From Flavobacterium gilvum (GTDB lineage: Bacteria > Bacteroidota > Bacteroidia > Flavobacteriales > Flavobacteriaceae): a DNA stretch of 64,000 bases. Shown here in pieces: positions 4,149 to 57,800 of the stretch. Under the pieces are notes generated by a model. It saw nothing but the letters and a program-made list of their open reading frames with translations, ran no database searches and had not been told where the DNA came from. Every line of letters begins with the position of its first letter. The first letter of the stretch is position 1. Where the stretch lies: assembly GCF_001761465.1 (NCBI RefSeq), contig NZ_CP017479.1, positions 3,038,001 to 3,102,000 on the forward strand. The letters run 5' to 3'. Made by a program: the position numbers and the translations under genes.

Positions 4149-4164
4149 ACTACATCGTTTTAGT
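4149..4164. promoter_or_regulatory. Candidate LacI operator, susC copy 1 site A
   Basis: ACTACATCGTTTTAGT, one mismatch from the palindromic consensus ACTAWAWCGWTWTAGT built from the sites in this window. CG-centred palindromes are typical of LacI/GalR-family operators, and two LacI genes flank the susC modules. Confidence 0.55.
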
Positions 4165-4212
4165 GTCTTTGATAAAAAATTGCATTTAATACAATCATTT
4201 TGCTAAAAATTT

Positions 4213-4228
4213 ACTAAATCGTTATAGT
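4213..4228. promoter_or_regulatory. Candidate LacI operator, susC copy 1 site B
   Basis: ACTAAATCGTTATAGT, an exact match to the consensus palindrome. It lies 64 bp from site A, about six helical turns, a spacing that would allow looping or paired binding. It sits between the lacI stop codon and susC. Confidence 0.6.
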
Positions 4229-4319
4229 ATTTTTTATTAAAAAAAAGGATTTTAATTGGTCTAATAAAAATCCTATTTGTGTTTTAAAACAATATCTTGC
4301 CTAAAACTGAACCTTATTT

Positions 4320-5333
4320 TCAAACAGATTCTCTGATAATTAGGTTTCCTTTATTCTTTTCTTTCTGCACCTTAAACTTAGCTTTGTCCTCCATTTGCAT
4401 CATCAATAGCTCAACAGTTTTTTTACCCATTTCCTCAATTGGTTGTGACAAAACCGTTATTGCAGGAGAATGTAATCTAAAACTATCATGATCATCAAAA
4501 CTGATTACCGCTTTGTCTTTTGGAATTTTTAATCCTAATTTTTTAAATGACTGCAAACCTGCCAACAGCAAATAATTGGTACTAAACAAAACAGCATCAA
4601 TATCGGTTACTGTATTCAAAAAATCACATATCTTTTCAATTCGTTCTTCTTCTGTAATATGATAATCTAATTCCAAAATTCTAGATTTATCATACAATTC
4701 CACCTCGTTCAACGCATCGATATAACCCTGCTTTCTCAATTGCATCTGAACCAATTCTCTTAAATTAGTTACAAATCCAATTTTTTTAAATCCTTTTTCC
4801 AAAAAATAACGTGTGGCAGTATAGGCTCCATCCAAATTATCAAGCACTACATGACTAACATTTTGATCTTCAAAATAGCGGTCAATCAATACAACCGGAC
4901 GCTGCAAATCAATCAATCGATCAATGGTAGATTTCATCCCCACTGTAGGCGTGATAATATAGCCATCAACATTTGCCTGCAACAAACTATCTACTAATTC
5001 AACTGCACGGGCATCATCACCACTTGTACTGCAATAAAACACTCTATAATTTGACCGAATTGCTTCTCTTTCAATAACCTTAGCGAAATCAGAAAAAAAC
5101 TGATTTGAAATATCTTCGACAATAAGTCCAATAGATCTGGTTTTGCCTGTTCTTAAACTACTGGCAATCATATTGGGTCTGTAGTTCATTTCTTCAGCTA
5201 TTTTTAGAACTTTTTTAATTACCTCACTACTTATCCCCATCTTCTCTCCTTTGTTATTTAAAACAAAAGAGACCGTTGTAACCGATACGTTTGCTACTTT
5301 GGCGATATCCTTAATAGTAATCATTTTGCCCAT
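4320..5333 (-). CDS. LacI-family transcriptional regulator (copy 1)
   Basis: 337 residues. An N-terminal LacI helix-turn-helix (about residues 4-50, with ITIKDIAKVANVSVTTVS and the hinge-region motif YRPNMIASSL) is followed by a periplasmic-binding-protein-like sensor domain (about 62-330, with IGLIVEDISNQFF and the late motif AVISFDDHD). Such proteins bind palindromic operators and release them, or bind, on sensing a sugar. Copy 2 at 11129-12142 has the same length; I count roughly 31 differences, mostly outside the DNA-binding helices, so both should read the same operator. An operator-like site lies at 5400-5415, 67 bp before the start, suggesting autoregulation. LacI control of a host-glycan-type PUL is less usual than ECF-sigma or hybrid two-component control. 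Confidence 0.93.
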   Translation of the reverse strand: MGKMITIKDIAKVANVSVTTVSFVLNNKGEKMGISSEVIKKVLKIAEEMNYRPNMIASSLRTGKTRSIGLIVEDISNQFFSDFAKVIEREAIRSNYRVFYCSTSGDDARAVELVDSLLQANVDGYIITPTVGMKSTIDRLIDLQRPVVLIDRYFEDQNVSHVVLDNLDGAYTATRYFLEKGFKKIGFVTNLRELVQMQLRKQGYIDALNEVELYDKSRILELDYHITEEERIEKICDFLNTVTDIDAVLFSTNYLLLAGLQSFKKLGLKIPKDKAVISFDDHDSFRLHSPAITVLSQPIEEMGKKTVELLMMQMEDKAKFKVQKEKNKGNLIIRESV

Positions 5334-5399: not shown

Positions 5400-5415
5400 A
5401 CAAAAACGATTTAGT
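5400..5415. promoter_or_regulatory. Candidate LacI operator upstream of lacI copy 1
   Basis: ACAAAAACGATTTAGT, one mismatch from ACTAWAWCGWTWTAGT. It lies 67-82 bp upstream of the lacI start, where autorepression would be expected. The equivalent place upstream of copy 2 holds two overlapping sites. Confidence 0.5.
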
Positions 5416-5786: not shown

Positions 5787-7388
5787 TTACATCATAAACC
5801 ATGGTTTATTTGATATGTTATCATTTCCATTTGAAGCGGCATTCCAATTCTCAAAATTGGTTGCTTTTTCTGTGTTTGGATAAGTAAATTTATTTAGAAC
5901 AGGTACATTTAGTATAGTTACATGCGGTGTGCCATCAGCTGTTCTTCGTTTCAATGTCCAAGCCTCATACGGTTGGTGAAAAAGAGCAATCCAACTTTGT
6001 TTATAAATTTGATCCAATGCAATAGCCGGTGAAGCATTGTAAGCAATTGCTGGATTGCTTAACATTGTTGTCATTTCTAATGGTGTTGGAGCCGCCGCTG
6101 GTTTATTTACTACCCAAATAGCTGCACTATTTGCTCTTTTATACCAGAAATTCACAGATTCTGTAATTCCAGCCTCATAAAATTGTTTTGCTGCAACAGG
6201 ATTTACAGCTACACCACCAATACCTCTAGCATATATTTCTGCTTTCAAAAAATTAACTTCAGCACTAGTAATAAACAATACTGGCATAGTTTCATCATCA
6301 GCATAATAGAAATTTACCGGCGAATAATTATAATTTTGAGCAGGAAGAGGTGTAGCCCAAGCAGTTAACCTAGACTCTTGGTAGCAATAATTCCCATCTA
6401 CTTCATTAGGAGTTGATGAAGTAGGTACTTGTGGATAGGCAACCCATTTACCCGCACGGTTAGGTTCGAATAAAATTTTACATCTTAAGTCATAAATTCC
6501 AGAACCATCATCATTTGTATTACTTGCCATAGCGTTAAACATGGTAGATCCCATTCGGATATAGGAGTTTCCAGTAAAATCTGTAATACGTTTATTTGTA
6601 AAACTAGCAATAGTTCCAGGATACAAACCATAATTATCACCTGTTCCCAACAATGGTTTTGTCAAAGCATCAGCAATAATAGCATCGGCAACTGTTTGGT
6701 TTTTACCTCTAATAACCAATGCATATCTTAGACGTAACGAATTTGCCAGTTTTTGCCATTTTGCAATATCTCCGCCGAAAATCACGTCACTAGCTCCAAC
6801 AGGATTTTGACCTGCATTGGAAGCCAAGTTATCAACAGCCCATTTCAAATCATTCAAGGCTGAAGTCATTATTTCTGATTGAGAATCATAAGAAGGTCTG
6901 TAATAATCTGCTCCATCGTAAGCTTTCCCAGCATTTTTATAAGGCATATCACCAAACATCAAAGTTGCATGAATTGTCTTATATGCCAACATTGTTTTCA
7001 GCATCGCTTTCAAATTAACCATTTTGGCGGCATTTGGATCAGCATCTATTACCGATTCTAATTTTCTTGCATTTGCCAAGGCAGTATAATAATTAGTCCA
7101 ATGACCTATAGCAAGATCATCCATACGATACCCCGAAGAAGCATAAGGAGCAGCCAGTTGAGTCGCTTGATAAATAAAAGACCCCTTCATTCTACCATTA
7201 CCAGAAATATCTGTCATACTTGCTGATATACTATTAAACAAAGCGGGAATTGTTGGAGCATACACTTTATTTTCCCAAGCCTTATTCATGTCACCAAAGT
7301 CCTGTTCACAAGAAGATGTTGTAGCCACAGTTATTGCTCCTAAAAGGAATAATTGAACCGTTTTTATTTTTATATTATTAAATTTCAT
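5787..7388 (-). CDS. SusD/RagB-family glycan-binding lipoprotein (second module)
   Basis: 533 residues. The start gives a lipoprotein signal peptide with lipobox TTSSC (Cys27), so the mature protein is anchored to the outer membrane. The body matches the SusD-like family with TPR-type helices: early HWTNYYTALANARKLE, then FGDMPY, WQKLANSLRLRYAL, a mid-region AEVNFLKAEIYARG and a late QIYKQSWIALFHQPYEAW. SusD proteins form the lid on the SusC barrel and capture oligosaccharides. The gene starts 18 bp after the susC stop codon, so the two are translationally close, and it is followed by a strong hairpin terminator. Family is certain; the ligand cannot be read, but N-glycan fragments are expected from the neighbouring hydrolases. 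Confidence 0.94.
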   Translation of the reverse strand: MKFNNIKIKTVQLFLLGAITVATTSSCEQDFGDMNKAWENKVYAPTIPALFNSISASMTDISGNGRMKGSFIYQATQLAAPYASSGYRMDDLAIGHWTNYYTALANARKLESVIDADPNAAKMVNLKAMLKTMLAYKTIHATLMFGDMPYKNAGKAYDGADYYRPSYDSQSEIMTSALNDLKWAVDNLASNAGQNPVGASDVIFGGDIAKWQKLANSLRLRYALVIRGKNQTVADAIIADALTKPLLGTGDNYGLYPGTIASFTNKRITDFTGNSYIRMGSTMFNAMASNTNDDGSGIYDLRCKILFEPNRAGKWVAYPQVPTSSTPNEVDGNYCYQESRLTAWATPLPAQNYNYSPVNFYYADDETMPVLFITSAEVNFLKAEIYARGIGGVAVNPVAAKQFYEAGITESVNFWYKRANSAAIWVVNKPAAAPTPLEMTTMLSNPAIAYNASPAIALDQIYKQSWIALFHQPYEAWTLKRRTADGTPHVTILNVPVLNKFTYPNTEKATNFENWNAASNGNDNISNKPWFMM

Positions 7389-7406: not shown

Positions 7407-10400
7407 TTAGAATTTAGCTTTCAAACTTACACCCAATGTACGTGTGCTTGGAAAAGCAGACCATTGCAAACCTTGCCCGTTTCCAGTACCGTTTATAGCT
7501 TCTGGATTTAAGTGATCAGGTAAAGTGGTATAGAAATAGAAAAGATTTCTACCAATTGCCGATATTGATAAATCTTGGAATACTTTTGATTTATGCAATA
7601 AACTAGGATTGAATCTATAAGTTAACACAACCTCTCTCATTTTTACCCAAGAATTTTCGAAAACAGATAAACTTCTTGGTTTATTCAAATCACTCCATCC
7701 TGCATATTGACCTGCATATTTGTACATATAACTTACAACTCTATCATTTGGTCTATTATCAGAAACGTTGAATCCATCTAAAATTACACCTGAATTTGAT
7801 GTTGTTCCATCAGGGTAAGTATAAGGTAATCCTCCCCCATTTCTTTCAACCAATGTTTCTGGTAACAAACCATTACCCATTGCTGTAGCGTGGTCAACAG
7901 AGTAAATATCTCCTCCATATTTGTAATCAACCAAAAGATTTAAACTTAAGTTTTTATATCTAAATGTATTAGATAAACCTCCTGTTAATTTTGGAGCAGC
8001 ATTACCAATTGCAACTGGAGTACTCGTAATTTTATATTTTGTTCCAATTACTTTTCCAGTACCGTCTAAAATATTTTCAATTTGTTTTCTTCCTTGAGCA
8101 TCATACTCAAAATCAGTACCATAAATAGTTCCGTAGTTTTCTCCTGGCGAAACTTTCATAAAGGCTCCTAAGTTTCCAAAAACAGAACCTATCTCTTCTT
8201 CTTTTACTCCTGGTCCTAATTCCTCAACTCTGTTTGTGTTTTTTGCACCATTAAAAGTAATGTTCCAAGAAAAATCATTTGTTTGTACGGCTGTCGCATT
8301 AATGGTTAAATCAAATCCTCTATTTCTCAAAGCTCCTGTATTAAATTTAACTTCGGAAGCTCCTGAAGCTGTTGAGATAGACGAATTCATGATTTGATTG
8401 TCTGAATAAATATCATAAACTGACAAATCGATATTTAATTTATCTTTGAAAAATCCTAAAGCAGTACCAAATTCAACCGTTTTCGAAGTTTGAAAACCTA
8501 AAGTAAATGGTGGAACAGTTGACGGCAATGAATGTGTTGGCTGATTTCCAAAAGTTCCTGTATTGTACGTTGCATCTAGTTGATATGGATCTGTAGCATT
8601 TGCCGCTTCTCCATAAAGAAATCTTACTTTACCATAAGAAAGTACATTTTCTACTTTACCCATATCAAAAGCTTCTGTAAATACAAAAGAGGCATTAGCT
8701 GATGGATAAAAAGTTGAATTACTATCTTTTGGCAAAGTTGAATTCACGTCTTTTCTACCTGTTGCTTCGAAAAACAAATAGTCTTTATAACTCAAATCTA
8801 ATATTCCAACTCCTGAGTAAGATTGTACATCATATCTTGTTTCTCCTAATGACACCTGAGTTCTATCTGTGAAATTCAATAAAGAATACACTCCTGGAAC
8901 GATAAATTTACTGTTATTGCTACCATTCACACTGGTTTTTTTGGAAGAAGCATCATTATACATTCCAGAAAGTTTAGCATTAAACCCTGGTGTAAACAAA
9001 TTGTCTTTATGAACAGTAACCATAAAATCGGTATTATAAAGATTGTCTTTACCAACTGATTTATAAAAACTTCCTCCAGACAAGCGATCAATAGATGTAG
9101 TATTGTTTTGAGTAACAAACTCGGTTGCTATTAAATTGGCTGATGTTCTTACAAATGCATTAAGCCAAGGAGTAATTTCAGCATTTAATTTAATGGTAGA
9201 AATAAACTCGTCTCTATCTAAATGTGAATTTTTTTCATAAAAATACCAATATAAATCTTGTCCGTATTCCGCATAAGGGTAGGAACTTGGGAAAGCATAT
9301 TTTGAACCATCAGGATTTTTATATACACCTTTTTCCAAAGGTTGATACTCTCTTGACATTCCGTAAACAGAGAATTTAGACCATGAATTATTAGTTCCAA
9401 TTTCTGGAGCATTCAGTCTATAATTTTCATTATAAGAGGCATTAACCTCTGCACTTAATACTTTTGAAATTTTCACATTAGCCCCCAAAGCATAATTACT
9501 GGTTTTGTAATTAGTATTATCTACTACCGCATCACCTTTTTTGTTGTTTATAGAAAGGCGAATACTTCCAAAATCATTTGCAGCAGAAAACGATACGTTG
9601 TGTGTAGTTTCAAGACCTGTTCTATAATAGGACTCTCTATTATCTGGTTGAGGAGAGTAAGATCTAACCTGTCCATCCCACCATCTTACCGGAGATCCGT
9701 CTAATTTTGGTCCCCAAGAAGCACCAGCTCCAAACCAGCTAAAAAGATTCCACGTAGGAGTTCCTCCTGGCAAAGCACCGTGATAATAACCTATACCTGA
9801 TCCTCCTGTTCCATACGAACTACCACCATATAAAGTAGGCAAATATTGCTCTCCCGAACTTGTTTTTGGTAATTTTGGGTTTGCTGTATAAAAAGCAGCG
9901 GCAAAACCTCCTCCATACTCATTCTGAACATCTGCAAATCTATAAACATCTGTGAAATTCGTAATAGTATTGTATTCAACACCAATCCCCTTTTGGGCAG
10001 TACCTTTTTTTGATGTAATTAAAATTACTCCATTTGCCCCTCTAGCACCATACAAAGCCGCAGCTCCCGGCCCTTTCAATACAGAAACTGACTCAACATT
10101 TTCCATATTTACATAACTCATGTAATTCCCCCAATCACGAATACCATCTGTACCATTTGTAGTCGATTGTTCAATAGGATTATTATCTAAAATAGCTCCA
10201 TCAATAACAATTAAAGGCTGGTTATTTCCTTTAATACTGTTATTTCCTCTTATCACTATTCTTGATGAAGCATTACCCAAACCGTTACCTGTAGAAACAT
10301 TCAATCCGGCAATTTTTCCGGCCATACCTTGTGCAAGATCAGCAGGAGCCGCTTTGATCACATCATCACCCTTAATTTGTTGCACGGCATAACCCACAGA

Positions 10401-10757
10401 TTTCTTATCTCGTTTCACACCGAGAGCCGTAACTACAACATTACTAAGATCATTTGCAGAAGACTTCATCTCTACATTTAGAACAGTACTTTTGCTGATT
10501 TTAACTTCGGTAGCTTGTAATCCAATAGAAGTAAAGACCAATACAGCATTATCGTTTACTTTTATTTGAAACTTTCCTTTTTCATCAGCAATAACACCAT
10601 TAGAAGTACCTTTTTCTTTAACGGTGGCCATTGCTACCGGAACGCCATCAGAATCTACGACAGTACCAGTAATCATTTTATTTTCTTGAGCACTAACGCC
10701 TTGGCAGTACACCACTACCAGACAAACTAGCAGCAACTTATGTAACAGTTTTTTCAT
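7407..10757 (-). CDS. SusC-like TonB-dependent outer-membrane transporter (second module)
   Basis: 1116 residues. Signal peptide about 1-23 (ending GVSAQ), carboxypeptidase-regulatory-like domain about 25-100 (ITGTVVDSDG, VFTSIGLQ), plug about 108-250 (IVIRGNNS, QPLIVIDGA), then the beta-barrel ending in Phe (LGVSLKAKF). It should import oligosaccharides with the SusD encoded 18 bp downstream, driven by TonB. The 371-bp leader contains an exact operator-like palindrome at 11020-11035 and the leader element at 10902-10925 shared with the other susC. Upstream is the second lacI gene. The pair of modules looks like a tandem duplication in which regulators stayed nearly identical while the transporters diverged. 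Confidence 0.95.
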   Translation of the reverse strand: MKKLLHKLLLVCLVVVYCQGVSAQENKMITGTVVDSDGVPVAMATVKEKGTSNGVIADEKGKFQIKVNDNAVLVFTSIGLQATEVKISKSTVLNVEMKSSANDLSNVVVTALGVKRDKKSVGYAVQQIKGDDVIKAAPADLAQGMAGKIAGLNVSTGNGLGNASSRIVIRGNNSIKGNNQPLIVIDGAILDNNPIEQSTTNGTDGIRDWGNYMSYVNMENVESVSVLKGPGAAALYGARGANGVILITSKKGTAQKGIGVEYNTITNFTDVYRFADVQNEYGGGFAAAFYTANPKLPKTSSGEQYLPTLYGGSSYGTGGSGIGYYHGALPGGTPTWNLFSWFGAGASWGPKLDGSPVRWWDGQVRSYSPQPDNRESYYRTGLETTHNVSFSAANDFGSIRLSINNKKGDAVVDNTNYKTSNYALGANVKISKVLSAEVNASYNENYRLNAPEIGTNNSWSKFSVYGMSREYQPLEKGVYKNPDGSKYAFPSSYPYAEYGQDLYWYFYEKNSHLDRDEFISTIKLNAEITPWLNAFVRTSANLIATEFVTQNNTTSIDRLSGGSFYKSVGKDNLYNTDFMVTVHKDNLFTPGFNAKLSGMYNDASSKKTSVNGSNNSKFIVPGVYSLLNFTDRTQVSLGETRYDVQSYSGVGILDLSYKDYLFFEATGRKDVNSTLPKDSNSTFYPSANASFVFTEAFDMGKVENVLSYGKVRFLYGEAANATDPYQLDATYNTGTFGNQPTHSLPSTVPPFTLGFQTSKTVEFGTALGFFKDKLNIDLSVYDIYSDNQIMNSSISTASGASEVKFNTGALRNRGFDLTINATAVQTNDFSWNITFNGAKNTNRVEELGPGVKEEEIGSVFGNLGAFMKVSPGENYGTIYGTDFEYDAQGRKQIENILDGTGKVIGTKYKITSTPVAIGNAAPKLTGGLSNTFRYKNLSLNLLVDYKYGGDIYSVDHATAMGNGLLPETLVERNGGGLPYTYPDGTTSNSGVILDGFNVSDNRPNDRVVSYMYKYAGQYAGWSDLNKPRSLSVFENSWVKMREVVLTYRFNPSLLHKSKVFQDLSISAIGRNLFYFYTTLPDHLNPEAINGTGNGQGLQWSAFPSTRTLGVSLKAKF

Positions 10758-11019: not shown

Positions 11020-11035
11020 ACTATATCGTTATAGT
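11020..11035. promoter_or_regulatory. Candidate LacI operator upstream of second susC
   Basis: ACTATATCGTTATAGT, an exact match to ACTAWAWCGWTWTAGT and a perfect palindrome except for its central W pair. It lies 263 bp upstream of the susC start, a position comparable to the sites upstream of the first susC. Confidence 0.6.
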
Positions 11036-11128: not shown

Positions 11129-12142
11129 TTAAACTGATTCTCTTATAATTAAACTCCCCTTTTCCTTTTCTTTCTGCTCCTTAAACTTAGCTTTGTCCTC
11201 CATTTGCAACATCAATAAACGAACTGTTTTTTTTCCCATTTCCTCAATTGGCTGTGACAATACCGTTATCGAAGGAGAATGTAATCTAAAACTATCATGA
11301 TCATCAAAACTGATTACCGCTTTGTCTTTTGGAATTTTTAATCCCAATTTTTTAAATGACTGCAAACCTGCCAACAGCAAATAATTGGTACTAAACAAAA
11401 CAGCATCAATATCGGTTACTGTATTCAAAAATTCACTAATTTTTTCGATTCGTTCTTCTTCTGTAATATGATATTCTAAGGAAAGTGTTCTTGACTCATC
11501 ATACAATCCAACTTCATTCAGCGCATTGATATAGCCTTGTTTTCTCAATTGCATCTGAACCAATTCTCTTAAATTAGTTACAAATCCAATTTTTTTAAAT
11601 CCTTTTTCCAAAAAATGGCGTGTGGCAGTATAACCACCATCTAAATTATCAAGTACTACATGACTAACATTTTGATCTTCAAAATATCGGTCAATTAATA
11701 CAACCGGGCGCTGCAAATCAATCAATCTATCTATTGTAGATTTCATACCCACTGTAGGCGTGATAATAAAACCATCAACATTTGCTTGTAATAAACTATC
11801 AACCAATTCAATCGCACGAGCATCGTCTCCTCCTGTACTACAGTAAAACACTCTATAGTTCAATTGCACAGCCTCTCTTTCTATCACTCTGGCAAATTCA
11901 GAGAAAAACTGATTTGAAATATCCTCAACAATAAGTCCAATAGATCTGGTTTTGCCCGTTCTCAAACTACTGGCAATCATATTGGGTCTGTAGCTCATTT
12001 CTTCTGCAAGTTTTAGAACTTTTTTAATTACCTCATTGCTTATCCCCATCTTCTCTCCTTTATCATTCAAAACAAAAGAGACTGTTGTAACCGATACGTT
12101 AGCCACTTTGGCGATATCCTTAATAGTAATTATTTTACCCAT
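11129..12142 (-). CDS. LacI-family transcriptional regulator (copy 2)
   Basis: 337 residues, same architecture as copy 1: HTH about residues 4-50 (ITIKDIAKVANVSVTTVS) and a sugar-binding sensor domain from about 62. Recognition-helix and hinge residues are the same as in copy 1, so a shared operator is expected. Differences cluster in the sensor domain, for example around residues 92-94 and 205-220, and near the C-terminus, so the two could respond to different ligands or form heterodimers. Two overlapping operator-like sites at 12196-12224 lie just upstream. It is the first gene of the second LacI-SusC-SusD module. Confidence 0.93.
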   Translation of the reverse strand: MGKIITIKDIAKVANVSVTTVSFVLNDKGEKMGISNEVIKKVLKLAEEMSYRPNMIASSLRTGKTRSIGLIVEDISNQFFSEFARVIEREAVQLNYRVFYCSTGGDDARAIELVDSLLQANVDGFIITPTVGMKSTIDRLIDLQRPVVLIDRYFEDQNVSHVVLDNLDGGYTATRHFLEKGFKKIGFVTNLRELVQMQLRKQGYINALNEVGLYDESRTLSLEYHITEEERIEKISEFLNTVTDIDAVLFSTNYLLLAGLQSFKKLGLKIPKDKAVISFDDHDSFRLHSPSITVLSQPIEEMGKKTVRLLMLQMEDKAKFKEQKEKEKGSLIIRESV

Positions 12143-12195: not shown

Positions 12196-12224
12196 AATAA
12201 AACGTTTTAGAAAAACGTTTTAGC
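12196..12224. promoter_or_regulatory. Two overlapping candidate LacI operators upstream of lacI copy 2
   Basis: Two CG-centred boxes, AATAAAACGTTTTAGA (12196-12211) and AGAAAAACGTTTTAGC (12209-12224), have centres 13 bp apart and two and three mismatches to the consensus. They sit 54-82 bp before the lacI start, the same place as the single site upstream of copy 1. Confidence 0.45.
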
Positions 12225-15221: not shown

Positions 15222-15296
15222 TTTGATTTTTTTAGTGATTTGAAACAGAATAGACTTTTTGATTAGCATTTGCTGAAACTGAAATGCTAATTTTTA

Positions 15297-17546: not shown

Positions 17547-17585
17547 CTAAAAATTATTTAATTATGTATGAGTATTCAAAAAAAA

Positions 17586-43270: not shown

Positions 43271-43390
43271 AAAAATAAAATAAGTTTATAACCCTTTTAT
43301 TATTATATTTGTCATAATAGCATCGCTTTTTTTGTCAGATGTTTAAAAAAAAATGGAAATGAAATACTTTCCTTTTTTTTCACCCTTATT

Positions 43391-43406
43391 ACTAAACCGA
43401 TTTAGA
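43391..43406. promoter_or_regulatory. Candidate LacI operator upstream of the 43470 operon
   Basis: ACTAAACCGATTTAGA, two mismatches from the consensus and nearly palindromic. It lies 64 bp before the start of the alpha/beta hydrolase gene, first of a seven-gene run to 57613. Confidence 0.5.
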
Positions 43407-43469
43407 ACTTAATCTTATTTAAAAAAAATAGATTTTTATCAAATAAAAAATAACTAAAGCTGATACAAA

Positions 43470-45926: not shown

Positions 45927-45942
45927 ATAAAATTATGTTACA

Positions 45943-45992
45943 CCACTAATTCGCTAATTGATGCTGCAAGAAAGATATTAGCGGATTACGGT
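45943..45992. repeat. Short inverted repeat after the alpha/beta hydrolase gene
   Basis: CACCACTAATTCGCTAAT and the near complement of ATTAGCGGATTACGGTG face each other. It is similar in style to the element at 18822-19000 and is probably a remnant of a dispersed repeat. It sits in the 220-bp gap before the beta-mannosidase gene and holds no ORF. Confidence 0.45.
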
Positions 45993-46146
45993 GGGCATAA
46001 GAACATTTTTTGCTGATAACCATTATAAAACGACATGTTTCAAACAAGCGTAAAATCCATTGAAACAACTATTTTAGAAAGTTTATAACCTGAAAAAGGG
46101 AAAAAAAAATAAAGAGAAAATCTTGTTTAAATAAAAAACAAAAAAG

Positions 46147-48159: not shown

Positions 48160-48240
48160 AAAAATTAATCTTTTCAACAAAGGCCTAACAGGTTTTAATC
48201 AATTGAAACAGAAGATATTTAAATAAATAAAATAAGAATA

Positions 48241-50508
48241 ATGCAATCTTACAAATTTAAAATTACCATCCTTGCAATGGCAAGTTTCTTTTTGACGAAT
48301 CCCGTTATTGCACAGGAAAAAACAAAAAACGAATCGAAAAGCAATTACACCCAATATGTAAATCCGTACATTGGTTCTGGTGGTCACGGACACGTTTTTT
48401 TGGGTGCCAATGTTCCTTTTGGGGCTGTTCAATTGGGGCCGTCGACTATTTTTGAAGGTTGGGATTGGTGCAGTGGTTATAATTATTCGAGTAATACTAT
48501 TCTCGGGTTCACGCACACCCATTTGAGCGGAACTGGAATTGGCGATTTGAACGATATTCTTCTGTTGCCGGCAACTGGAAAAGTAGCTCTAAACAAAGCA
48601 GATAAAAAAGATCCGAATGGTTACGGTTCTACTTTCTCCCATCAAAATGAAGTCGTAAAACCTGGTTATTACAGCGTTCTTTTGGACAAATACAACGTAA
48701 AAGCAGAATTGACTACATCAGAAAGAGTTGGTTTTCATAAATACACTTTCAATTCAAAAGAAGAAGCGCACGTCTTACTTGACCTCACTGATGGTTTGGG
48801 TTGGGACAGTCCAAAACAAACAATGATTCAAAAAACAGGGAGCAAAACCATTATTGGTTATCGACACTCCAAAGGCTGGGCTGATGACCAACGTTTGTTT
48901 TTTGCAATGGAATTTTCGGAAGATATTTCAAATATTGCTTTGTATGACAGTATCGCTATAAAAAGCGGACTTCAAGGCGAGGGCAAAAAAATGAAAGCTA
49001 TTTTGGATTTTAAAAACAAAAAAGGAAATGTCATCATGGTTAAAGTGGGAATTTCGCCAGTAAGTACCGAAAACGCTTTAGCCAATATCAAAGTCGAAAT
49101 TCCGAATTGGGATTTCTCAAAAGCTGTTCAAAACGCAGATGCAAAATGGAACAAAGCTTTGGCCAAAATTGACATTAAAGCCAATCCTGATACTAAAACA
49201 ATTTTCTACACTTCCTTATATCATACGATGTTTGCCCCATCAATTTTTAATGATGCAAATGGAGATTATAGAGGAACGGATAAAAAAGTTTATAAAAACA
49301 GTGGTTTTACCAACTACACCACCTTCTCTTTATGGGACACCTATCGTGCATTACACCCGCTTTACACAATTATCCAAGAGGATAAAATCAATGATATTGT
49401 AAAAACATTTTTGGCGATTTACCAACAACAAGGGAGATTACCCGTTTGGCATTTGATGGGAAATGAAACTGATTGTATGAACGGAAACCACTCCATTGCC
49501 GTAATTGTCGATGCTTATTTTAAAGGATATCGCAATTACGATGTGAATTTGGCTTACGAAGCCATCAAAAAGACAGCGATGCAAAACCGTGCGGGTATGG
49601 ATTATGTACAAAAAATACAATACATCCCGGCAGACAGTCAGTTGGAAACCGTTGCCAATGCTTTGGAATACGCCATCGATGATTGGTGTATTGCCCGAAT
49701 GGCAAAGGATTTAAACAAAATGGACGATTATGCTTATTTCACCAAAAGAGCCGAATTATACAAACAATATTTTGATAAAAATACCGGTTTCATGCGCGGA
49801 AAATTAGCAAATGGACAATGGAGAGAACCTTTCAATCCGTTGGCTTCATCCCACCGAAAAGACGATTATGTAGAAGGAAATGCTTGGCAATACACTTGGT
49901 TGGTACCTCAAGATCCTTATGGTTTGATTGATTTATTTGGCGGAGACCAAAAATTTATCGAGAAATTTGATCAACTGTTTACACTGACAGAAAAAGTAGC
50001 CGGCGAAGAAGCTTCACCAGATATCAGTGGGTTGATTGGCCAATATGCGCAAGGAAATGAACCGAGTCACCACATTCCGTATTTGTATGCTTATGTGGGA
50101 CAACCTTGGAAAACAGCCAAAATAGTTCGTCAGGTTTTTGACCAATTTTATACCACCAAAATTGACGGAATTTGTGGAAACGAGGATGTTGGTCAAATGT
50201 CGGCTTGGTACGTGTTATCATCTATGGGTTTTTATGCCGTAAATCCTGCAAAAGGGATCTATGTTTTTGGAAGCCCAGCTGTTGACGAAGCTGTTATTCA
50301 TTACAAAGAAAATATTTCATTCAAAATAACTGCTGTAAACAACAGTAAAACAAATATTTATATTCAAAAAGTGGAATACAACGGAAAACCCTATACAAAA
50401 TCATACATTACCCATGACATGATTGTAAAAGGTGGTGAACTTAAATTATATATGGGCAGTCAGCCTTCTATGACTTTTGGTGTTGCAAAAGCTGACAGAC
50501 CTTTGTAG
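48241..50508 (+). CDS. GH92 alpha-mannosidase
   Basis: 755 residues. N-terminal signal about 1-25 (PVIAQ). Typical GH92 motifs: YVNPYIGSGGHGHVFLGA, WCSGYNYSS, GFTHTHLSGTGIGDLNDILLLP (about 84-108), FTNYTTFSLWDTYRALHPL, GNETDCMNGNHS and CGNEDVGQMSAWYVLSSMGFY. The HLSGTGIGD form is the classic exo-alpha-mannosidase version, often alpha-1,2 or alpha-1,3 specific, and Ca2+ dependent. It differs from the other two GH92 proteins in the window, giving three likely linkage specialists. It follows the beta-mannosidase by 81 bp. Confidence 0.95.
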   Translation: MQSYKFKITILAMASFFLTNPVIAQEKTKNESKSNYTQYVNPYIGSGGHGHVFLGANVPFGAVQLGPSTIFEGWDWCSGYNYSSNTILGFTHTHLSGTGIGDLNDILLLPATGKVALNKADKKDPNGYGSTFSHQNEVVKPGYYSVLLDKYNVKAELTTSERVGFHKYTFNSKEEAHVLLDLTDGLGWDSPKQTMIQKTGSKTIIGYRHSKGWADDQRLFFAMEFSEDISNIALYDSIAIKSGLQGEGKKMKAILDFKNKKGNVIMVKVGISPVSTENALANIKVEIPNWDFSKAVQNADAKWNKALAKIDIKANPDTKTIFYTSLYHTMFAPSIFNDANGDYRGTDKKVYKNSGFTNYTTFSLWDTYRALHPLYTIIQEDKINDIVKTFLAIYQQQGRLPVWHLMGNETDCMNGNHSIAVIVDAYFKGYRNYDVNLAYEAIKKTAMQNRAGMDYVQKIQYIPADSQLETVANALEYAIDDWCIARMAKDLNKMDDYAYFTKRAELYKQYFDKNTGFMRGKLANGQWREPFNPLASSHRKDDYVEGNAWQYTWLVPQDPYGLIDLFGGDQKFIEKFDQLFTLTEKVAGEEASPDISGLIGQYAQGNEPSHHIPYLYAYVGQPWKTAKIVRQVFDQFYTTKIDGICGNEDVGQMSAWYVLSSMGFYAVNPAKGIYVFGSPAVDEAVIHYKENISFKITAVNNSKTNIYIQKVEYNGKPYTKSYITHDMIVKGGELKLYMGSQPSMTFGVAKADRPL

Positions 50509-50633
50509 CCTAATACTGTTAGGTTAAGAGATTTTTGATTAACGATTGTCGATTTCAGATTTGGCATGACTAAAATTATATTAATGCCTTAAAGTTTTAT
50601 AAAAAATAAAATCACCGAATAACAACTAATATT

Positions 50634-51491
50634 ATGAGAAAATTCATATTGGTTTTAGAAATATTTTTTGCTTTCGCAAATACAAATGCACAAACCAAAG
50701 CATTATCAAGTCTGAATATAATGACGTTTAATATTCGTTATGACAATCCGGGAGACGGCTTAAACAGTTGGCAGCATCGCAAAGAAAATGTCTTGAAAAT
50801 GATTCGTTTCAACGAAGTGGATATTCTAGGAATGCAGGAAGTTCTTGAGCACCAACTGAAAGATTTCACTACAGGTCTTTCTGGATACGAAGCTATTGGA
50901 GTTGGTCGTGAAGATGGAAAAACAAAAGGAGAATACAGCCCAATTCTTTACAATAAAAATAAATTTACACTAATAAAATCAGGTTATTTCTGGCTGAGCC
51001 AAACTCCGGAAAAACCATCCAAAGGTTGGGATGCCGCTTGCGAACGCATTGCAACTTGGGTGCAACTGAAAGACAAAGCCAACGGGAAAAAACTTTTTGT
51101 AATAAATACTCATTTTGATCACATCGGCGAAATTGCCAGACGTGAAAGTGTGACTTTGATAAAATTAAAAATCGCTCAACTCAGCGAAGGAATGCCTCAA
51201 ATAATGATGGGAGATTTGAATGCTACTCCAGACTCATCGGTGATGACTGCATTATTGACACCGGATAAATCGTTAAGTCTTTTGGATTCCAAAAAACTGG
51301 CACCAATTGTTTACGGTCCAAATTGGTCTTTTTATGATTTTGGAAAAATACCTTTCAATGACCGCCCTCTTATCGATTATATTTTGGTAACCAAAGGAAT
51401 TTCAATCAAAAAATATGCTGTTTTTGCCGAAACATTAAATGAACTTTGTCTTTCTGATCATGCTCCTGTCTTCATCAATATTTCATTTTAA
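50634..51491 (+). CDS. Secreted endonuclease/exonuclease/phosphatase-fold hydrolase
   Basis: 285 residues. Signal peptide about 1-20 (TNAQ). The EEP-fold catalytic set is visible: Asn33 in MTFNIRYD, Glu69 in GMQEVLEH, His160 in NTHFDH, Asp194 and Asn196 in GDLNATP, and Asp275-His276 in SDHAPVF. These metal-dependent enzymes cleave phosphodiesters or phosphomonoesters. Between two GH92 genes a role on phosphorylated mannan or N-glycans (for example removing mannose-6-phosphate or GlcNAc-phosphate caps that block mannosidases) is more likely than DNA repair, since the protein is exported. That role is inference. It has 125 bp to the upstream gene and 34 bp to the next GH92. Confidence 0.85.
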   Translation: MRKFILVLEIFFAFANTNAQTKALSSLNIMTFNIRYDNPGDGLNSWQHRKENVLKMIRFNEVDILGMQEVLEHQLKDFTTGLSGYEAIGVGREDGKTKGEYSPILYNKNKFTLIKSGYFWLSQTPEKPSKGWDAACERIATWVQLKDKANGKKLFVINTHFDHIGEIARRESVTLIKLKIAQLSEGMPQIMMGDLNATPDSSVMTALLTPDKSLSLLDSKKLAPIVYGPNWSFYDFGKIPFNDRPLIDYILVTKGISIKKYAVFAETLNELCLSDHAPVFINISF

Positions 51492-51525
51492 AATCTCCCC
51501 TCCTATCAAACAAAAAAATTCTATA

Positions 51526-53808
51526 ATGAAAAACTGTAACTTCTTTTTGGCACTTCTTTTTTGGGGATTCATTACAAATGCTCAAAACAAAACCGATAAT
51601 CCTGTAGATTATGTCAATACTCTAATGGGAACCCAATCAGTTCACAGCTTGTCAAACGGAAATACGTATCCAGCTATTGCGCGTCCTTGGGGAATGAATT
51701 TTTGGTCACCACAAACAGGCAAAATGGGTGACGGATGGATGTACACTTACACCGCCGAAAAAATACGTGGATTCAAACAAACGCATCAGCCTTCACCTTG
51801 GATCAATGATTACGGACAATTTTCGATTATGCCCGTTACAGGAAAATTAGTTTATAAAGAAGACGATAGAGCAAGCTGGTTCAGTCATAAATCGGAAATT
51901 ACAAAACCACATTATTACAGTGTATATCTTGCCGATTTTGACATTACTACCGAAATGACTGCGACTGAAAGAGCGGCTCATTTTCAAATTACTTTTCCAA
52001 AAAACGATCAATCTTCAATCGTGGTTGATGCATTTGACAAAGGTTCGTACATCAAAATCATTCCTTCCGAAAATAAAATCATTGGTTACACCACAAGAAA
52101 CAGTGGTGGTGTTCCTGATAATTTCAAAAATTATTTTGTTTTGGTTTTCGACAAAGCTTTTGAAACCAAATACACATGGAACGAGAATGGATTAGCAAAA
52201 GACCAACTCGAAATGAAAGCCAATCATTCCGGTGCAGTTGTAGGCTTTAAAACCAATAAGGGAGAGAAAATAAACGTTCGCGTTGCTTCGTCATTTATTA
52301 GTTTTGAACAAGCAGAACAAAACTTAAATGCCGAATTGAAAAATAGGCCTTTCGAAAATGTACTAGCCGAATCAAAAACGGTTTGGAACAAAACACTTGG
52401 AAAAGTAAAAGCTGAAGGCGGAACCGAAGAACAGATTAACACTTTTTACTCTTGTTTATATCGCACGGTTTGTTTTCCGCAAAAATTATATGAAGTCGAT
52501 TCCAACGGAAAAATTGTGCACTACAGTCCGTACAACGGAAAAATTCAAGACGGTTATATGTATGGTGGAACTGGATTTTGGGACACTTTTCGGGCATTGT
52601 ACCCTTTGTTGAACTTAGTTTATCCATCCATCAACAAGGAAATGCAGGAAGCCTTGATTAATGATTACAAAGAAGGCGGCTTTTTGCCAGAGTGGTCAAG
52701 TCCCGGTCTAAGGGATTGCATGGTGGGCAACAACTCGGCTTCGGTAGTTGCAGAGGCTTATTTAAAAGGTTTGAGAGGTTATGACATCAACACTTTGTAC
52801 GAAGCTTTGCAGCATGGTGCAAACAACGAAGGACCAAACGCAACGGGACGTAAAGGAGTTGAATATTACAACACCTTGGGTTATGTTCCTTATGATGTAA
52901 AAATCAACGAGAATGCAGCCAGAACGTTGGAATATGCTTATGATGATTTTGCTATTTGGAAATTGGCGAAAGCCTTAAACCGTCCGGCATCTGAAATTGC
53001 GCAGTACGAAAAACGAATGATGAATTATAAAAACCTGTTCAATCCGGAATTCAATTTAATGAGCGGAAGAGACAAAGACGGCAGTTTTACTAAAAATTTC
53101 AATCCGTTTAAATGGGGCGATGCTTTTACAGAAGGCAACAGCTGGCATTACAGTTGGAGTGTTTTCCACGACATTCAGGGATTAATTAATCTGATGGGAG
53201 GCGAAAAAGCCTTTACCGCAAAATTAGACGAGGTATTTTCGCTACCACCAACATTTGACGACTCTTATTATGGTGGCGTGATTCATGAAATCCGCGAAAT
53301 GCAGATTATGAATATGGGACAATATGCACACGGAAACCAACCAATACAACACATGATTTATCTGTACAATTATGCAGGACAACCTTGGAAAACGCAATAT
53401 TGGTCAAGAGAAGTCATGAACCGTTTGTACAAACCAACCCCAGACGGTTATTGCGGAGACGAAGATAACGGACAAACATCGGCTTGGTATATTTTCTCTT
53501 CCATGGGCTTCTACCCTGTTTGCCCGGCTTCGGATGAATATGTTTTGGGTGCACCTTTATTCAAAAAAATAACCGTTACTTTAGAGAACGGTAAACAAAT
53601 AGTCATTAATGCAGATAAAAATTCTGCCGAAAACAAATACGTTCAGGAATTGAAATGGAATCAAAAAGTCTATGACAAAAACTATATCAATCATTTCGAA
53701 TTACAAAAAGGAGCCGAACTTGACTTTAATATGGTTAACATTCCAAACGAAAAACGTGGGACTTCAAAAACAAGTTATCCATATTCGTATTCAACACAGA
53801 AAAAATAA
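51526..53808 (+). CDS. GH92 alpha-mannosidase
   Basis: The frame is open from 51439, but the ATG at 51526 gives a proper signal (MKNCNFFLALLFWGFITNAQ) and avoids overlapping the upstream gene. The protein then has 760 residues. GH92 motifs: VDYVNTLMGTQSVHSLSNGNTYP (spread over about 24-47), FKQTHQPSPWINDYGQFSIMP, GTGFWDTFRALYPLL, CMVGNNSASV and CGDEDNGQTSAWYIFSSMGF. The HQPSPWINDYG variant marks a subgroup different from the other two GH92 proteins of the locus. Expected action is exo-alpha-mannosidase on N-glycan or mannan arms. It lies 34 bp after the EEP gene and 77 bp before GH125. Confidence 0.94.
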   Translation: MKNCNFFLALLFWGFITNAQNKTDNPVDYVNTLMGTQSVHSLSNGNTYPAIARPWGMNFWSPQTGKMGDGWMYTYTAEKIRGFKQTHQPSPWINDYGQFSIMPVTGKLVYKEDDRASWFSHKSEITKPHYYSVYLADFDITTEMTATERAAHFQITFPKNDQSSIVVDAFDKGSYIKIIPSENKIIGYTTRNSGGVPDNFKNYFVLVFDKAFETKYTWNENGLAKDQLEMKANHSGAVVGFKTNKGEKINVRVASSFISFEQAEQNLNAELKNRPFENVLAESKTVWNKTLGKVKAEGGTEEQINTFYSCLYRTVCFPQKLYEVDSNGKIVHYSPYNGKIQDGYMYGGTGFWDTFRALYPLLNLVYPSINKEMQEALINDYKEGGFLPEWSSPGLRDCMVGNNSASVVAEAYLKGLRGYDINTLYEALQHGANNEGPNATGRKGVEYYNTLGYVPYDVKINENAARTLEYAYDDFAIWKLAKALNRPASEIAQYEKRMMNYKNLFNPEFNLMSGRDKDGSFTKNFNPFKWGDAFTEGNSWHYSWSVFHDIQGLINLMGGEKAFTAKLDEVFSLPPTFDDSYYGGVIHEIREMQIMNMGQYAHGNQPIQHMIYLYNYAGQPWKTQYWSREVMNRLYKPTPDGYCGDEDNGQTSAWYIFSSMGFYPVCPASDEYVLGAPLFKKITVTLENGKQIVINADKNSAENKYVQELKWNQKVYDKNYINHFELQKGAELDFNMVNIPNEKRGTSKTSYPYSYSTQKK

Positions 53809-53885
53809 ACTCACTCAAATTTCTCCAATTTTCACCAATAAAATATCTGAAGATTGGCATAATTCGAGTCAAAAAATAAAAAAAT

Positions 53886-55346
53886 ATGCAATCACGTAGA
53901 AAATTTATAAAAAACACAGGGATTTTATCTGCAGGAATGCTCGCCCTAAACACTGAAGTTTTTGCTTCAAGCTCTAATTTATTTTTAAATTTTGCGCCCG
54001 ATTTTGTGAGCCAGCGTCCGCCATTGGCACAGCGTAAATTCACCAGTAAAGCCGTTGAAGATGCCATTGTTCGTATCAAAAAACAAATTGCCAATCCAGA
54101 ATTGGCTTGGTTGTTTGAGAACTGTTTCCCAAACACTTTGGACACCACAGTCGATTTTGAAATCATCGACGGAAAACCAGATACTTATGTCATTACTGGC
54201 GATATCGATGCAATGTGGCTTCGCGATTCTACAGCACAAATTTGGCCTTATATCCCTTTTGTAAAAGAAGACAAAAAATTGAAGGAATTGGTAAAAGGGG
54301 TTATCAACCGCCAGACAAAATGTATTTTGCTCGATCCATACGCCAATGCTTTTTACAAAGATTTCAATCAGGTGAGTGAATGGAAAAGTGATATCACCAA
54401 AATGCAACCCGGAATCCACGAACGCAAATGGGAAATAGACAGCCTTTGTTATCCCGTTCGATTGGCACATGGTTACTGGAAAGAAACCGGAGATGTTTCC
54501 ATGTTTGACGAAAATTGGAAAAAAGCCATGCATTTGGTTTTACAAACTTTCAAAGAGCAACAACGTTGGACAAGCAAAGGTCCTTATACTTTCCAAAGAA
54601 CAACTGCTTGGGCAACAGACGGTGTTCCTTTATCTGGCTACGGTTATCCGGTAAAACCTTGCGGATTGATTGTTTCTACTTTCCGTCCGAGTGATGACAG
54701 TACTTTGTTTGGATATCTAATACCGAGCAATATGTTTGCCATCGAAATATTGGGATACATGATCGAAATGTGTTCTACTCCTGCTTTAAAAGATGATGAA
54801 ATTGTGAAAAAAGCAAGCGAACTGAGAGCGCAAGTACAACAAGGACTAAAAGAAAACGGAATCATAACACACCCAAAATTCGGGGAAATTATTGCTTTTG
54901 AAGTAAATGGTTATGGCAGTTTTCATTTTATGGATGATGCCAATGTGCCTTCACTATTATCATTGCCTTATTTGGGTGCTGTAAAACCTGACAGCCCTTT
55001 ATATCTAAATACCCGAAAAGTGGTTCTTTCAGATAATAATCCGTTTTTTTACAAAGGAAAAGCAGGTGAAGGAATTGGCGGACCACACACAGGAGCCGAC
55101 ACGATTTGGCCTATGAGTATCATCCTTAGAGCTATTACAAGTGTTGATGAAAACGAAATAAAATATTGCATCAGCATCCTAAAGAAAACCCACGCCGATA
55201 CTGGATTTATGCACGAATCGTTCCATAAAGACGATGCAAAAAAATTCACCCGAAAATGGTTTGCTTGGGCTAATACGTTATTTGGCGAATTAATTGTCAA
55301 TACCAGCAAAAATCATCCGAGTATATTAGCCGATAAAAATATTTAA
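53886..55346 (+). CDS. GH125 exo-alpha-1,6-mannosidase
   Basis: 486 residues. The N-terminus MQSRRKFIKNTGILSAGML has the Arg-Arg pattern and short hydrophobic core of a Tat or lipoprotein-like signal (end near VFAS). The catalytic (alpha/alpha)6 domain contains the diagnostic GDIDAMWLRDSTAQIWPY (about 105-122), RTTAWATDGVPLSGYG, GLIVSTFRPSDDSTLFGY and HADTGFMHESFHKDD. GH125 enzymes are inverting exo-alpha-1,6-mannosidases that act on the alpha-1,6 arm of the N-glycan core or on mannan. This complements the alpha-1,2/1,3-type GH92 enzymes encoded just upstream. It has 77 bp to GH92 and 65 bp to the next gene. Family call is strong. Confidence 0.93.
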   Translation: MQSRRKFIKNTGILSAGMLALNTEVFASSSNLFLNFAPDFVSQRPPLAQRKFTSKAVEDAIVRIKKQIANPELAWLFENCFPNTLDTTVDFEIIDGKPDTYVITGDIDAMWLRDSTAQIWPYIPFVKEDKKLKELVKGVINRQTKCILLDPYANAFYKDFNQVSEWKSDITKMQPGIHERKWEIDSLCYPVRLAHGYWKETGDVSMFDENWKKAMHLVLQTFKEQQRWTSKGPYTFQRTTAWATDGVPLSGYGYPVKPCGLIVSTFRPSDDSTLFGYLIPSNMFAIEILGYMIEMCSTPALKDDEIVKKASELRAQVQQGLKENGIITHPKFGEIIAFEVNGYGSFHFMDDANVPSLLSLPYLGAVKPDSPLYLNTRKVVLSDNNPFFYKGKAGEGIGGPHTGADTIWPMSIILRAITSVDENEIKYCISILKKTHADTGFMHESFHKDDAKKFTRKWFAWANTLFGELIVNTSKNHPSILADKNI

Positions 55347-55411
55347 CAACATTGTTTTAATCCTAATTTTTACTAAAAATTTTAACCCTTGGCGAAAAAA
55401 AGTTCAAAAAA

Positions 55412-57613
55412 ATGGTAAAAAAAATAATTCTGGCATTTCTTATTTCTGTTCCTGCTTTTACAATTAATGCTCAGGACTTGTCGAAACTTCCTATTTTGGA
55501 TATTAAAAACGAAGTTGCTGTATCCAAAGATTGGTTGGTCACTCCTATAGATGCCAAGGCAAATGTGTATGCGAGTAAAGACAAAAAATCGATTGTTTTG
55601 TACAACGGATTGGTAAGGAGAACTTTTCAAATTTCTCCCAATGTCGCCTGTACCGATTTTACCAATCTTACTACAAATCAGCAATTAATCAGAGCAGTAA
55701 AACCAGAAGCAAAAATTACACTTGACGGAAAAGAATACGCCATTGGCGGATTGAAAGGCCAAAAAGAGAATGCTTATTTGTTGCCAGAATGGTTGGATAA
55801 AATGGAAGTTGGAAAAGAAGATTTTACTTTTGTGAATTATACAATTTCAGATATTAAACCATACATCAATTGGAAACCGACCAATTGGGCAATGAACAAA
55901 AAACAAGCCACCGGAAAATTATTGACTTTTGAATATGCTTCTTCCCTACCCGAATTGAAAGGGTTGAAAGTTAAGGTTAATTACGAATTGTATGATGGAT
56001 TACCTTTGATTACAAAGTCGATTTCTATTGAAAATGCCACCCAAAAAGTATTCAAACTAGACAGAGTCGTAAGCGAAACTATCGCCATGGTTGAGGAACA
56101 AAGTGCTGTAGAAGGCGATCCCGAAAAGATGAGAGGCCAACACGGTTTTTATATCGAAACCAATTATGCTTTCAATAACTCAATGAGTTATGAATTGAGC
56201 GATCAAACGACACATTGGAAAATGGATTCCGTTTATACATCTCAGGTGCATTATAACTACAAAACGCCTTGCCTGCTTGAAGTTTATCCCGAAAAAGCAC
56301 CGGGAATAGACCTAAATCCAAATGATGTTTACAATTCTGTTCGCAGCAATGAATTATTAATAGATACTTATGATCGACAACGTCGCGGATTGATGATCAA
56401 AAAAATGTACCGCACAATAGCACCTTGGATTACCGAAAATCCAATTTTCATGCACTTGGTTAGCAAAAATGACGAACAGGTTCGAACAGCTATAGACCAG
56501 TGTGCCGCTACAGGTTACGAAGCATTGATATTAAGTTTTGGAAGCCATTTAAATATGGAATTGGATACGCCGGAAAATCATCAAAAATGGAAAGCATTAG
56601 CCGATTACGCTCATAGCAAAGGTGTGAAAATTGGAGGTTATTCGCTATTCAGCAGCCGACGAATAAGTGACGAAGATGATGTTGTTGATCCCAAAACAGG
56701 AAAACCTGGCGGTGCTTTTTTTGGTGGTCACGCTCCTTGCTTTGGAAGCAAATGGGGATTGTCATATAGAGACCGAATCAAGAAATTTTACACAGAAACT
56801 GGTTTTGATATTTGGGAAAATGACGGGCCATATCCTGGTGATGTTTGTGCATCAACAACACATCCAGGACACAAAGGCCTAGATGACTCACAATGGAAAC
56901 AAATGGAAATCCAGAAAGAATTGTATCGCTGGTTGAATGAAAAAGGTGTATATATCAATGCACCAGACTGGTATTTTTTAGATGGAACACATAAAATCGC
57001 TTTGGGATATAGAGAAAGAAATTTTTCCCTATCAAGAGAACAACAACGCATTTTGAATCGCCAGAATATTCATGACGGCACGATTGAAAAAACAGCTTCA
57101 ATGTCCTGGGGTTTTGTTCCCTTGACAGCATATCAAGGCGGTGATGCTTCAGCGGTTTTGGAACCCTTGAGCGAACACTTAAAAGATTACCAACAATTAA
57201 TGGTACAATATTATGGAGCGGGAGTTCAAGCCTGCTATAGAGGCCCCCGTTTGTATGACACCGATGTCACAAAAGAATTAGTCAAAACAACAATCAATTG
57301 GTACAAAAAATACCGTGACATTCTAAATTCCGATATGATACAATTACGTCGTGCCGATGGAAGGGACTGGGATGGTTTTGTACACGTGAATCCCGCTTTA
57401 AAACAAAAAGCATTTATTATGTTGTACAATCCGACCAAAGAAAAAATGACTAAAACCATCAAAGTACCGTTATACTATTCGGGTTTGACTGAAAATGCTA
57501 AAATTCGGGAGAAAGAAGCCGTTGCCAAAAATTACAAAATCAACCGCAATTATGAAGTCAATCTGACATTCACAATTGAACCCGAAAGTTACACTTGGTA
57601 CGTTGTCGAATAA
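55412..57613 (+). CDS. Unassigned alpha-galactosidase-like (clan GH-D-type) protein
   Basis: 733 residues. Signal peptide about 1-20 (TINAQ). The N-terminal ~290 residues form a beta-supersandwich-like domain (LYNGLVRRTFQISPN, GGLKGQKENAYLLPEWLD). A probable (beta/alpha)8 barrel follows (about 310-640) with IKKMYRTIAPWITENP, GYEALILSFGSHLNME, SKGVKIGGYSLF and WENDGPYPGDVC. Asp471 in WENDGPYPG is the best nucleophile candidate, by analogy with the KxD nucleophile strand of GH27/GH36. A C-terminal beta domain closes the protein. I recognise the shape as alpha-galactosidase-like but cannot place it in a characterised family. Alpha-galactosidase, alpha-GalNAcase or another retaining alpha-glycosidase activity is possible. 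It is last in the plus-strand run that starts at 43470. Confidence 0.65.
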   Translation: MVKKIILAFLISVPAFTINAQDLSKLPILDIKNEVAVSKDWLVTPIDAKANVYASKDKKSIVLYNGLVRRTFQISPNVACTDFTNLTTNQQLIRAVKPEAKITLDGKEYAIGGLKGQKENAYLLPEWLDKMEVGKEDFTFVNYTISDIKPYINWKPTNWAMNKKQATGKLLTFEYASSLPELKGLKVKVNYELYDGLPLITKSISIENATQKVFKLDRVVSETIAMVEEQSAVEGDPEKMRGQHGFYIETNYAFNNSMSYELSDQTTHWKMDSVYTSQVHYNYKTPCLLEVYPEKAPGIDLNPNDVYNSVRSNELLIDTYDRQRRGLMIKKMYRTIAPWITENPIFMHLVSKNDEQVRTAIDQCAATGYEALILSFGSHLNMELDTPENHQKWKALADYAHSKGVKIGGYSLFSSRRISDEDDVVDPKTGKPGGAFFGGHAPCFGSKWGLSYRDRIKKFYTETGFDIWENDGPYPGDVCASTTHPGHKGLDDSQWKQMEIQKELYRWLNEKGVYINAPDWYFLDGTHKIALGYRERNFSLSREQQRILNRQNIHDGTIEKTASMSWGFVPLTAYQGGDASAVLEPLSEHLKDYQQLMVQYYGAGVQACYRGPRLYDTDVTKELVKTTINWYKKYRDILNSDMIQLRRADGRDWDGFVHVNPALKQKAFIMLYNPTKEKMTKTIKVPLYYSGLTENAKIREKEAVAKNYKINRNYEVNLTFTIEPESYTWYVVE

Positions 57614-57784
57614 TGAAAATAAACTTTTATTTTTAAAAAAACACTCCAGTTTCAAATTATTAACTAGAAACGTTTTAACTTTTAAAAAAGAAAGATTATT
57701 TTTACTAAACAAACCAAATCATTAAAATTAAATAATAGAAAATTTTTAGTAATATGTTAAAATTTAATTCTAATAAACCAATTT

Positions 57785-57800
57785 ACTAATACGATTTAGT
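57785..57800. promoter_or_regulatory. Candidate LacI operator upstream of second GH20
   Basis: ACTAATACGATTTAGT, one mismatch from the consensus palindrome. It lies 71 bp before the GH20 start in a 257-bp gene-free gap and could control the unit running to at least 64000. Confidence 0.55.

Follow-up and report, generated by a model that had tools for sequence, protein, structure and literature searches.

The 16-base palindromes scattered through an N-glycan utilization locus of Flavobacterium gilvum are very probably, to judge from their placement and conservation, docking sites for two LacI-type proteins encoded in the same locus. We are fairly confident in a fuller reading, in which the boxes would serve as operators for the products of lacI1 and lacI2, members of a LacI/GalR clade. 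This clade would sense an N-glycan breakdown product and, along about 93 kb, control its own gene together with PNGase F-II, the SusCD importers and several units of enzyme genes. We computed where the sites lie, how they recur at the same genes across species, how they co-occur with this LacI and how they are placed relative to the -7 element; from these we infer binding, repression and release by a sugar.

The locus and its probable regulators

The window, that is, the whole stretch of 64,000 nucleotides analysed, spans positions 3038001-3102000 of a 4,402,594-base chromosome assembled as a single contig. It comprises two susC genes, two lacI genes, one susD gene found by Pfam and enzymes of the PNGase F, GH92, GH125, GH38, GH2, GH20, GH29 and GH3 families (Table 1), which is the set expected for N-glycans. 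LacI1 and LacI2 both score above cut-off for PF00356 and PF13377, the domains of the LacI/GalR family, and a CG-centred palindrome lies beside their own gene, as in operators of this family. With a LacI helix-turn-helix, a periplasmic-binding-like domain, this type of palindrome and a predicted autoregulatory box, they resemble the LacI/GalR repressors, which include LacI, PurR and CcpA. An earlier note on this sequence described two near-identical LacI proteins; this is correct here, but two copies are not the rule, since the orthologous loci of nine species have one lacI each. Relatives of the window LacI that were retrieved by name come almost exclusively from Flavobacterium.

Table 1. Genes, predicted LacI boxes and leader elements of the locus (positions in the window unless marked as chromosomal)
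Feature	Position	Strand	Remarks
susC1	619..3945	-	TIGR04056; orthologue of relatives' susC (~70%)
Two-codon ORF before susC1	4093-4106	-	ATG, one codon, stop
Predicted LacI box before susC1, 64 bp distal to 4213	4149..4164		1 mismatch; 17.3 bits
Predicted LacI box before susC1, right after lacI1 terminator-like T-run	4213..4228		exact; 21.9 bits; footprint in relatives
lacI1	4320..5333	-	PF00356 and Peripla_BP domains; TVSF helix
Predicted LacI box before lacI1, over -33 region	5400..5415		1 mismatch; 23.8 bits; TAnnTTTG starts 24 nt past centre
susD2	5787..7388	-	SusD-like_2
susC2	7407..10757	-	TIGR04056; only ~30% identity to susC1
Two-codon ORF before susC2	10902-10915	-	ATG, one codon, stop
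Predicted LacI box before susC2	11020..11035		exact; 17.9 bits
lacI2	11129..12142	-	LacI domains; 91% identity to lacI1
Predicted LacI box before lacI2	12209..12224		3 mismatches; 14.9 bits; TAnnTTTG starts 24 nt past centre
Enzyme block	13050..37856	-	GH3, GH20, PNGase F, GH92, GH38, GH29, GH2, SDR, rhaM and others
Predicted moderate LacI box before GH38 gene	29131..29146		2 mismatches; 9.4 bits
Predicted moderate LacI box before GH29 gene, divergent region	38029..38044		2 mismatches; 9.9 bits; GH29 orthologue preceded by boxes in G060 and G066
Enzyme block	38523..62863	+	dehydratase, GH29, GH2, GH92, GH125, GH20, ROK and others
Predicted moderate LacI box before S9/esterase-like gene	43391..43406		2 mismatches; 11.5 bits; in G066, box 48 bp before orthologue
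Predicted LacI box before GH20 gene	57785..57800		1 mismatch; 17.2 bits
Box within GH20 gene	58564..58579		2 mismatches; 15.1 bits; absent from earlier note
Region before SusC_L with lacI 3'-end relic, T-run and exact box	chromosome 3033713-3034476		

Boxes are concentrated in and around the window

The earlier note listed 13 boxes, all of which we recovered at the coordinates and with the mismatch numbers it gave. Besides those in Table 1, they include a two-mismatch box at 12196 and three-mismatch boxes at 11087, 37990 and 41541. In total, the window contains 22 sites with at most three mismatches, versus a mean of 4.9 and a maximum of 10 in 100 shuffles. Nine of these sites are additional to the earlier list. 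Two of them, at 31842 and 58564, have two mismatches and lie within genes; of the other seven, all with three mismatches, five are intragenic.

To train a matrix, we took 73 distinct boxes that flank lacI in other species and that had been chosen by the earlier note's own pattern with at most two mismatches. Sites of at least 16 bits number nine in the 144 kb around the window and zero in 400 kb elsewhere, sampled as twenty 20-kb stretches spread across the chromosome; with the threshold lowered to 10 bits, the respective counts are 14 and 2, and the background contains 2 sites of at least 9 bits per 400 kb. Over the same 144 kb, matrices with permuted half-site columns gave on average 0.23 sites reaching 16 bits (maximum 7).

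The cross-species matrix separates the listed boxes into strong ones (4149, 4213, 5400, 11020, 12209 and 57785; 14.9-23.8 bits) and moderate ones (12196, 29131, 38029 and 43391; 9.4-11.5 bits). The 12209 box is better supported than the 12196 match that it overlaps (9.9 bits), while matrix scores do not support the candidates at 11087 (7.1 bits), 41541 (5.2 bits) and 37990 (under 6 bits). The sequence at 57785, off-consensus base included, is identical in five species and differs by one base in a sixth; in relatives, it lies ahead of ROK or AGA genes. No box was seen at 10 bits before the GH38 gene of the relative G060.

It had also been claimed that boxes precede both susC genes, both lacI genes and nearly every transcription unit. 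The first part holds, but 'nearly every unit' is too strong, because only 8 of the 13 window gaps of at least 90 bp between genes contain a site reaching 9 bits. The five gaps that do not would fit a more limited role, in which LacI control is confined to the lacI genes, susC and a small number of conserved sites, moderate enzyme boxes are due to chance and most enzymes obey GntR, AraC or some other system. The scores of 29131, 38029 and 43391 (only 9.4-11.5 bits) point the same way, as does the presence of other regulators near the locus, a GntR gene to its left, about 92% identical in those relatives that possess it, and an AraC gene to its right. However, three such sites in short gaps are to be compared with a background of two in 400 kb, and boxes recur before the orthologues of PNGase F-II, AraC, ROK/AGA, GH3 and GH29. 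We therefore consider this limited role rather unlikely, and favour control of several enzyme units by the LacIs.

Raw counts of the pattern over the full genome yielded no excess over a reversed control: with at most two mismatches, the pattern occurs at 62 places and the reversed pattern at 127, and with at most one mismatch, 13 relatives together have 153 and 134, respectively. The reversed pattern is a poor neutral control, being GC-centred rather than CG-centred. We dropped genome-wide counting as proof, since the counts do not exceed this control, and the argument therefore rests on position and conservation. As to position, the genome has 15 places that differ from the pattern by one mismatch or none, and 8 of them fall within 3002872-3095785, a stretch that makes up about 2.1% of the chromosome.

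Leftward of the window, the predicted regulon continues for about 35 kb, with sites at a GH3 gene, in the divergent region between GntR and PNGase F-II and before a third susC (SusC_L). At chromosome positions 3021897-3026550, the GntR/UTRA regulator gene is divergent from PNGase F-II and a second PNGase F-like gene adjoins.

Elsewhere in the genome, sites of at least 16 bits occur at 3493319 and 3527489; the distal sites at 802967, 1323460, 1496693, 3493319 and 3763601 score 12.8-18.1 bits. The boxes at 3527388 and 3527489 (15.6 and 19.6 bits) precede the susC of a chitin-locus-like cluster; this susC, whose boxes span 3527388-3527504, adjoins a GH20 gene and a glucosamine-6-phosphate isomerase-like gene. 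Its 74% orthologue in G060 has no upstream box of at least 10 bits. In a relative's locus, a one-mismatch box (L159:1501), found as an identical 16-mer in G061 and G062 as well, is followed by a gene whose start, we presume, resembles fructose-bisphosphatase.

Conservation in relatives

Among 80 loci of relatives, a box with at most two mismatches was found before lacI in 79 and after the lacI stop codon in 79; lacI is flanked on both sides in 78. Equal control windows elsewhere in the loci had matches in 1 of 142 cases (200 bases) and 3 of 142 (400 bases). In the orthologous loci of nine species, totalling 715 kb, 58 of the 59 sites of at least 10 bits are intergenic, whereas intergenic DNA makes up 13% of these loci (p 2e-50). 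Recurrent positions are before lacI, susC, PNGase F-II or GntR, AraC, ROK or AGA, GH3 and GH29.

Which protein reads the box

We surveyed 150 Flavobacterium genomes, calling this LacI at an E value of 1e-60 or better. The protein is present in 31 genomes and the exact box ACTAAAWCGWTTTAGT in 33: 27 genomes have both, 4 the LacI only (F. gilvum among them), 6 the box only and 113 neither (Fisher 7e-20). The box lies within 500 bases of lacI in 26 of the 27 genomes holding both. The reversed pattern, found in 12 of 119 genomes without this LacI and 4 of 31 with it, has no association either way.

Could the boxes belong to a regulator other than these LacIs? The 6 genomes out of 119 with an exact box and no such LacI would be in keeping with this idea. 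On the other hand, the exact box is found in 27 of the 31 genomes that do have the LacI, boxes flank lacI in 78 of 80 loci and also in a LacI clade at 60% identity, and half-sites differ for other LacI types. We regard a different reader as very improbable. The box-only genomes (G024, G033, G123, G133, G142 and G154) all share the form ACTAAAACGTTTTAGT, and none of their 17 typeable LacIs is of the Phe type described below.

Our preferred readers, the two window LacIs, have a Phe at the recognition-helix position where most LacIs have Arg. Eight other LacIs are encoded in this genome, three of Lys type and five of Arg type, and none has Phe. In the accessible text of Camas et al. 2010, this position (AA-20) is tied to the sixth base from the operator centre (NT-6), Arg being linked to G, in a code limited to the TVSR (Arg) group (PMC2978694). 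The present case shares the AA-20/NT-6 linkage but differs from the Arg group described there (PMC2978694), AA-20 being Phe and NT-6 being T. We scanned for palindromes upstream of 72 LacIs and retained the best-ranking ones where 6 or more of the 7 positions pair. T occupies NT-6 in 6 of 6 Phe-type and 1 of 2 Tyr-type cases, and G in 6 of 9 Lys-type and 3 of 4 Arg-type cases; comparing Phe with Lys/Arg over T-or-G sites only gives p 0.002, a value that is merely indicative because the compared proteins are related. Phe would thus pair with T, not G, and the other LacIs would read other sites. Upstream of several Lys-type LacIs (L050, L058, L229 and L246), we observed a different candidate operator, TCGAAAACGTTTTCG(T/A).

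One LacI specificity across the locus, as the earlier note proposed, is supported by the cross-species footprints, by the co-occurrence of LacI and box and by a residue absent from the eight other LacIs.

Promoter geometry and sign of control

The flavobacterial -7 element, TAnnTTTG, is located at -12 to -5 according to the accessible part of the source (PMC9723704). In 77 of 80 loci, it starts 21-26 nucleotides past the centre of the lacI box, which puts this centre at about -33 to -38; with the -33 region under the box, autorepression of lacI is likely. At PNGase F-II, 7 of 10 genomes have the element starting 22-23 nucleotides ahead of a box centre, which places that centre at about +10. 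At the AraC gene, a 29-nucleotide spacing between box and element is seen in all eight species with a box there, with a centre at about -41 that fits either activation or repression; in F. gilvum, the AraC-gene site scores only 3.0 bits.

Might LacI mainly activate susC and AraC instead of repressing them? The constant spacing at AraC would suit activation, and so would the lack of a canonical -7 element near the susC boxes, where only 3 occurrences were found in 79 leaders. Yet in the case of lacI and PNGase F-II, the box overlaps either the -33 region or the transcription start, where repressors usually sit, and we find a mainly activating role unlikely.

Under repression, which we prefer, a LacI dimer on the lacI box would cover the -33 region and shut down lacI itself, and a dimer on the PNGase F-II box would cover the first transcribed bases. 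The susC box comes after the lacI T-run; a LacI bound there, behind the lacI terminator, could either stop transcription that runs on from lacI or work at an unusual, non-canonical promoter, both being possible. A sugar released by N-glycan breakdown would then free LacI from its operators; our guess would be a mannose-type sugar, as related LacIs have GH92 or GH125 genes alongside.

We had considered GC[TC]TATGATnnAAA, whose exact form occurs at five places in the genome, three of them before a susC, as a susC promoter; we now tentatively read it as a conserved two-codon ORF. In 15 susC leaders (13 relatives and both window copies), such an ORF follows an A-rich stretch 154-176 nucleotides before susC in 14 cases; the remaining leader has an ORF of six codons with a stop. 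This could be a regulatory upstream ORF.

Possible spread of the regulon

SusC1, SusC2 and SusC_L share only about 30% identity with one another, whereas the two LacIs share 91%. Before SusC_L, a 55-column match to the lacI 3' end with its T-run scores 57, against 28 for the best of 500 shuffles. The three best matches of this relic belong to the N-glycan LacI clade (57, 47 and 45), the 60% clade reaching at most 42, and the two sets of scores overlap. Copied segments of lacI end, terminator and operator may have brought new importers under control. A SusC2 orthologue at an E value of 1e-200 was found in 1 of 150 genomes, its own, a weak count because only five candidates per genome were scored.

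The 60% clade has the same box, also flanking lacI, though its locus differs. Five such loci contain homologues of the window GH2 (5 of 5), GH92 (3 of 5) and EEP (1 of 5) genes, so the window may merge two loci.

A broader proposal, in which we place as much doubt as trust, is that the LacI recognition code has a branch separate from the Arg group, in which T:A at NT-6 accompanies Phe, and perhaps aromatic residues generally, at AA-20. This branch would define a Flavobacteriales clade of glycan-locus LacIs, whose regulon grew by copying of the 'lacI 3' end, terminator, operator' unit before unrelated susC genes, the relic before the third susC marking one such event.

Relation to known systems

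The accessible parts of published descriptions offer several points of comparison. The LacI-type KdgR, UxaR, UxmR and UxuR of Bacteroides thetaiotaomicron are listed for uronate pathways (PMC3878776); like the window LacIs, they are Bacteroidota regulators of carbohydrate use inferred by comparative genomics, whereas the window LacI would cover a SusCD glycan locus. The high-mannose N-glycan loci of B. thetaiotaomicron are under ECF-sigma control (PMC11180146) and alpha-mannan loci under hybrid two-component (HTCS) control (PMC3878776). They have SusC/SusD in the locus, as here, but rely on membrane-linked sigma/anti-sigma pairs or hybrid sensors (PMC11180146, PMC3878776), neither of which occurs among the scanned window genes. 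The chitin utilization locus of Flavobacterium johnsoniae, also with two SusC/D pairs, differs in being controlled by the two-component system CusS/CusR (PMC5127042).

The earlier note saw LacI as replacing ECF-sigma or hybrid control. This agrees with the absence of any ECF sigma/anti-sigma or HTCS gene among the scanned genes of the window and its flanks, but goes too far in that GntR and AraC are also nearby and an additional sigma factor at susC is possible. The titles and abstracts listed in our literature search, of a library with few subscription journals, contained no description of this regulon.

Descriptions of Bacteroidota N-glycan loci have featured membrane-linked sensors, either of the ECF or of the hybrid two-component kind. 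If most of such a locus is governed by a soluble LacI, sensing would take place after import, and a sugar inducer that can be tested is predicted. For the family, the Phe-T pairing would provide a simple rule by which operators could be predicted for LacIs that do not belong to the well-studied Arg group.
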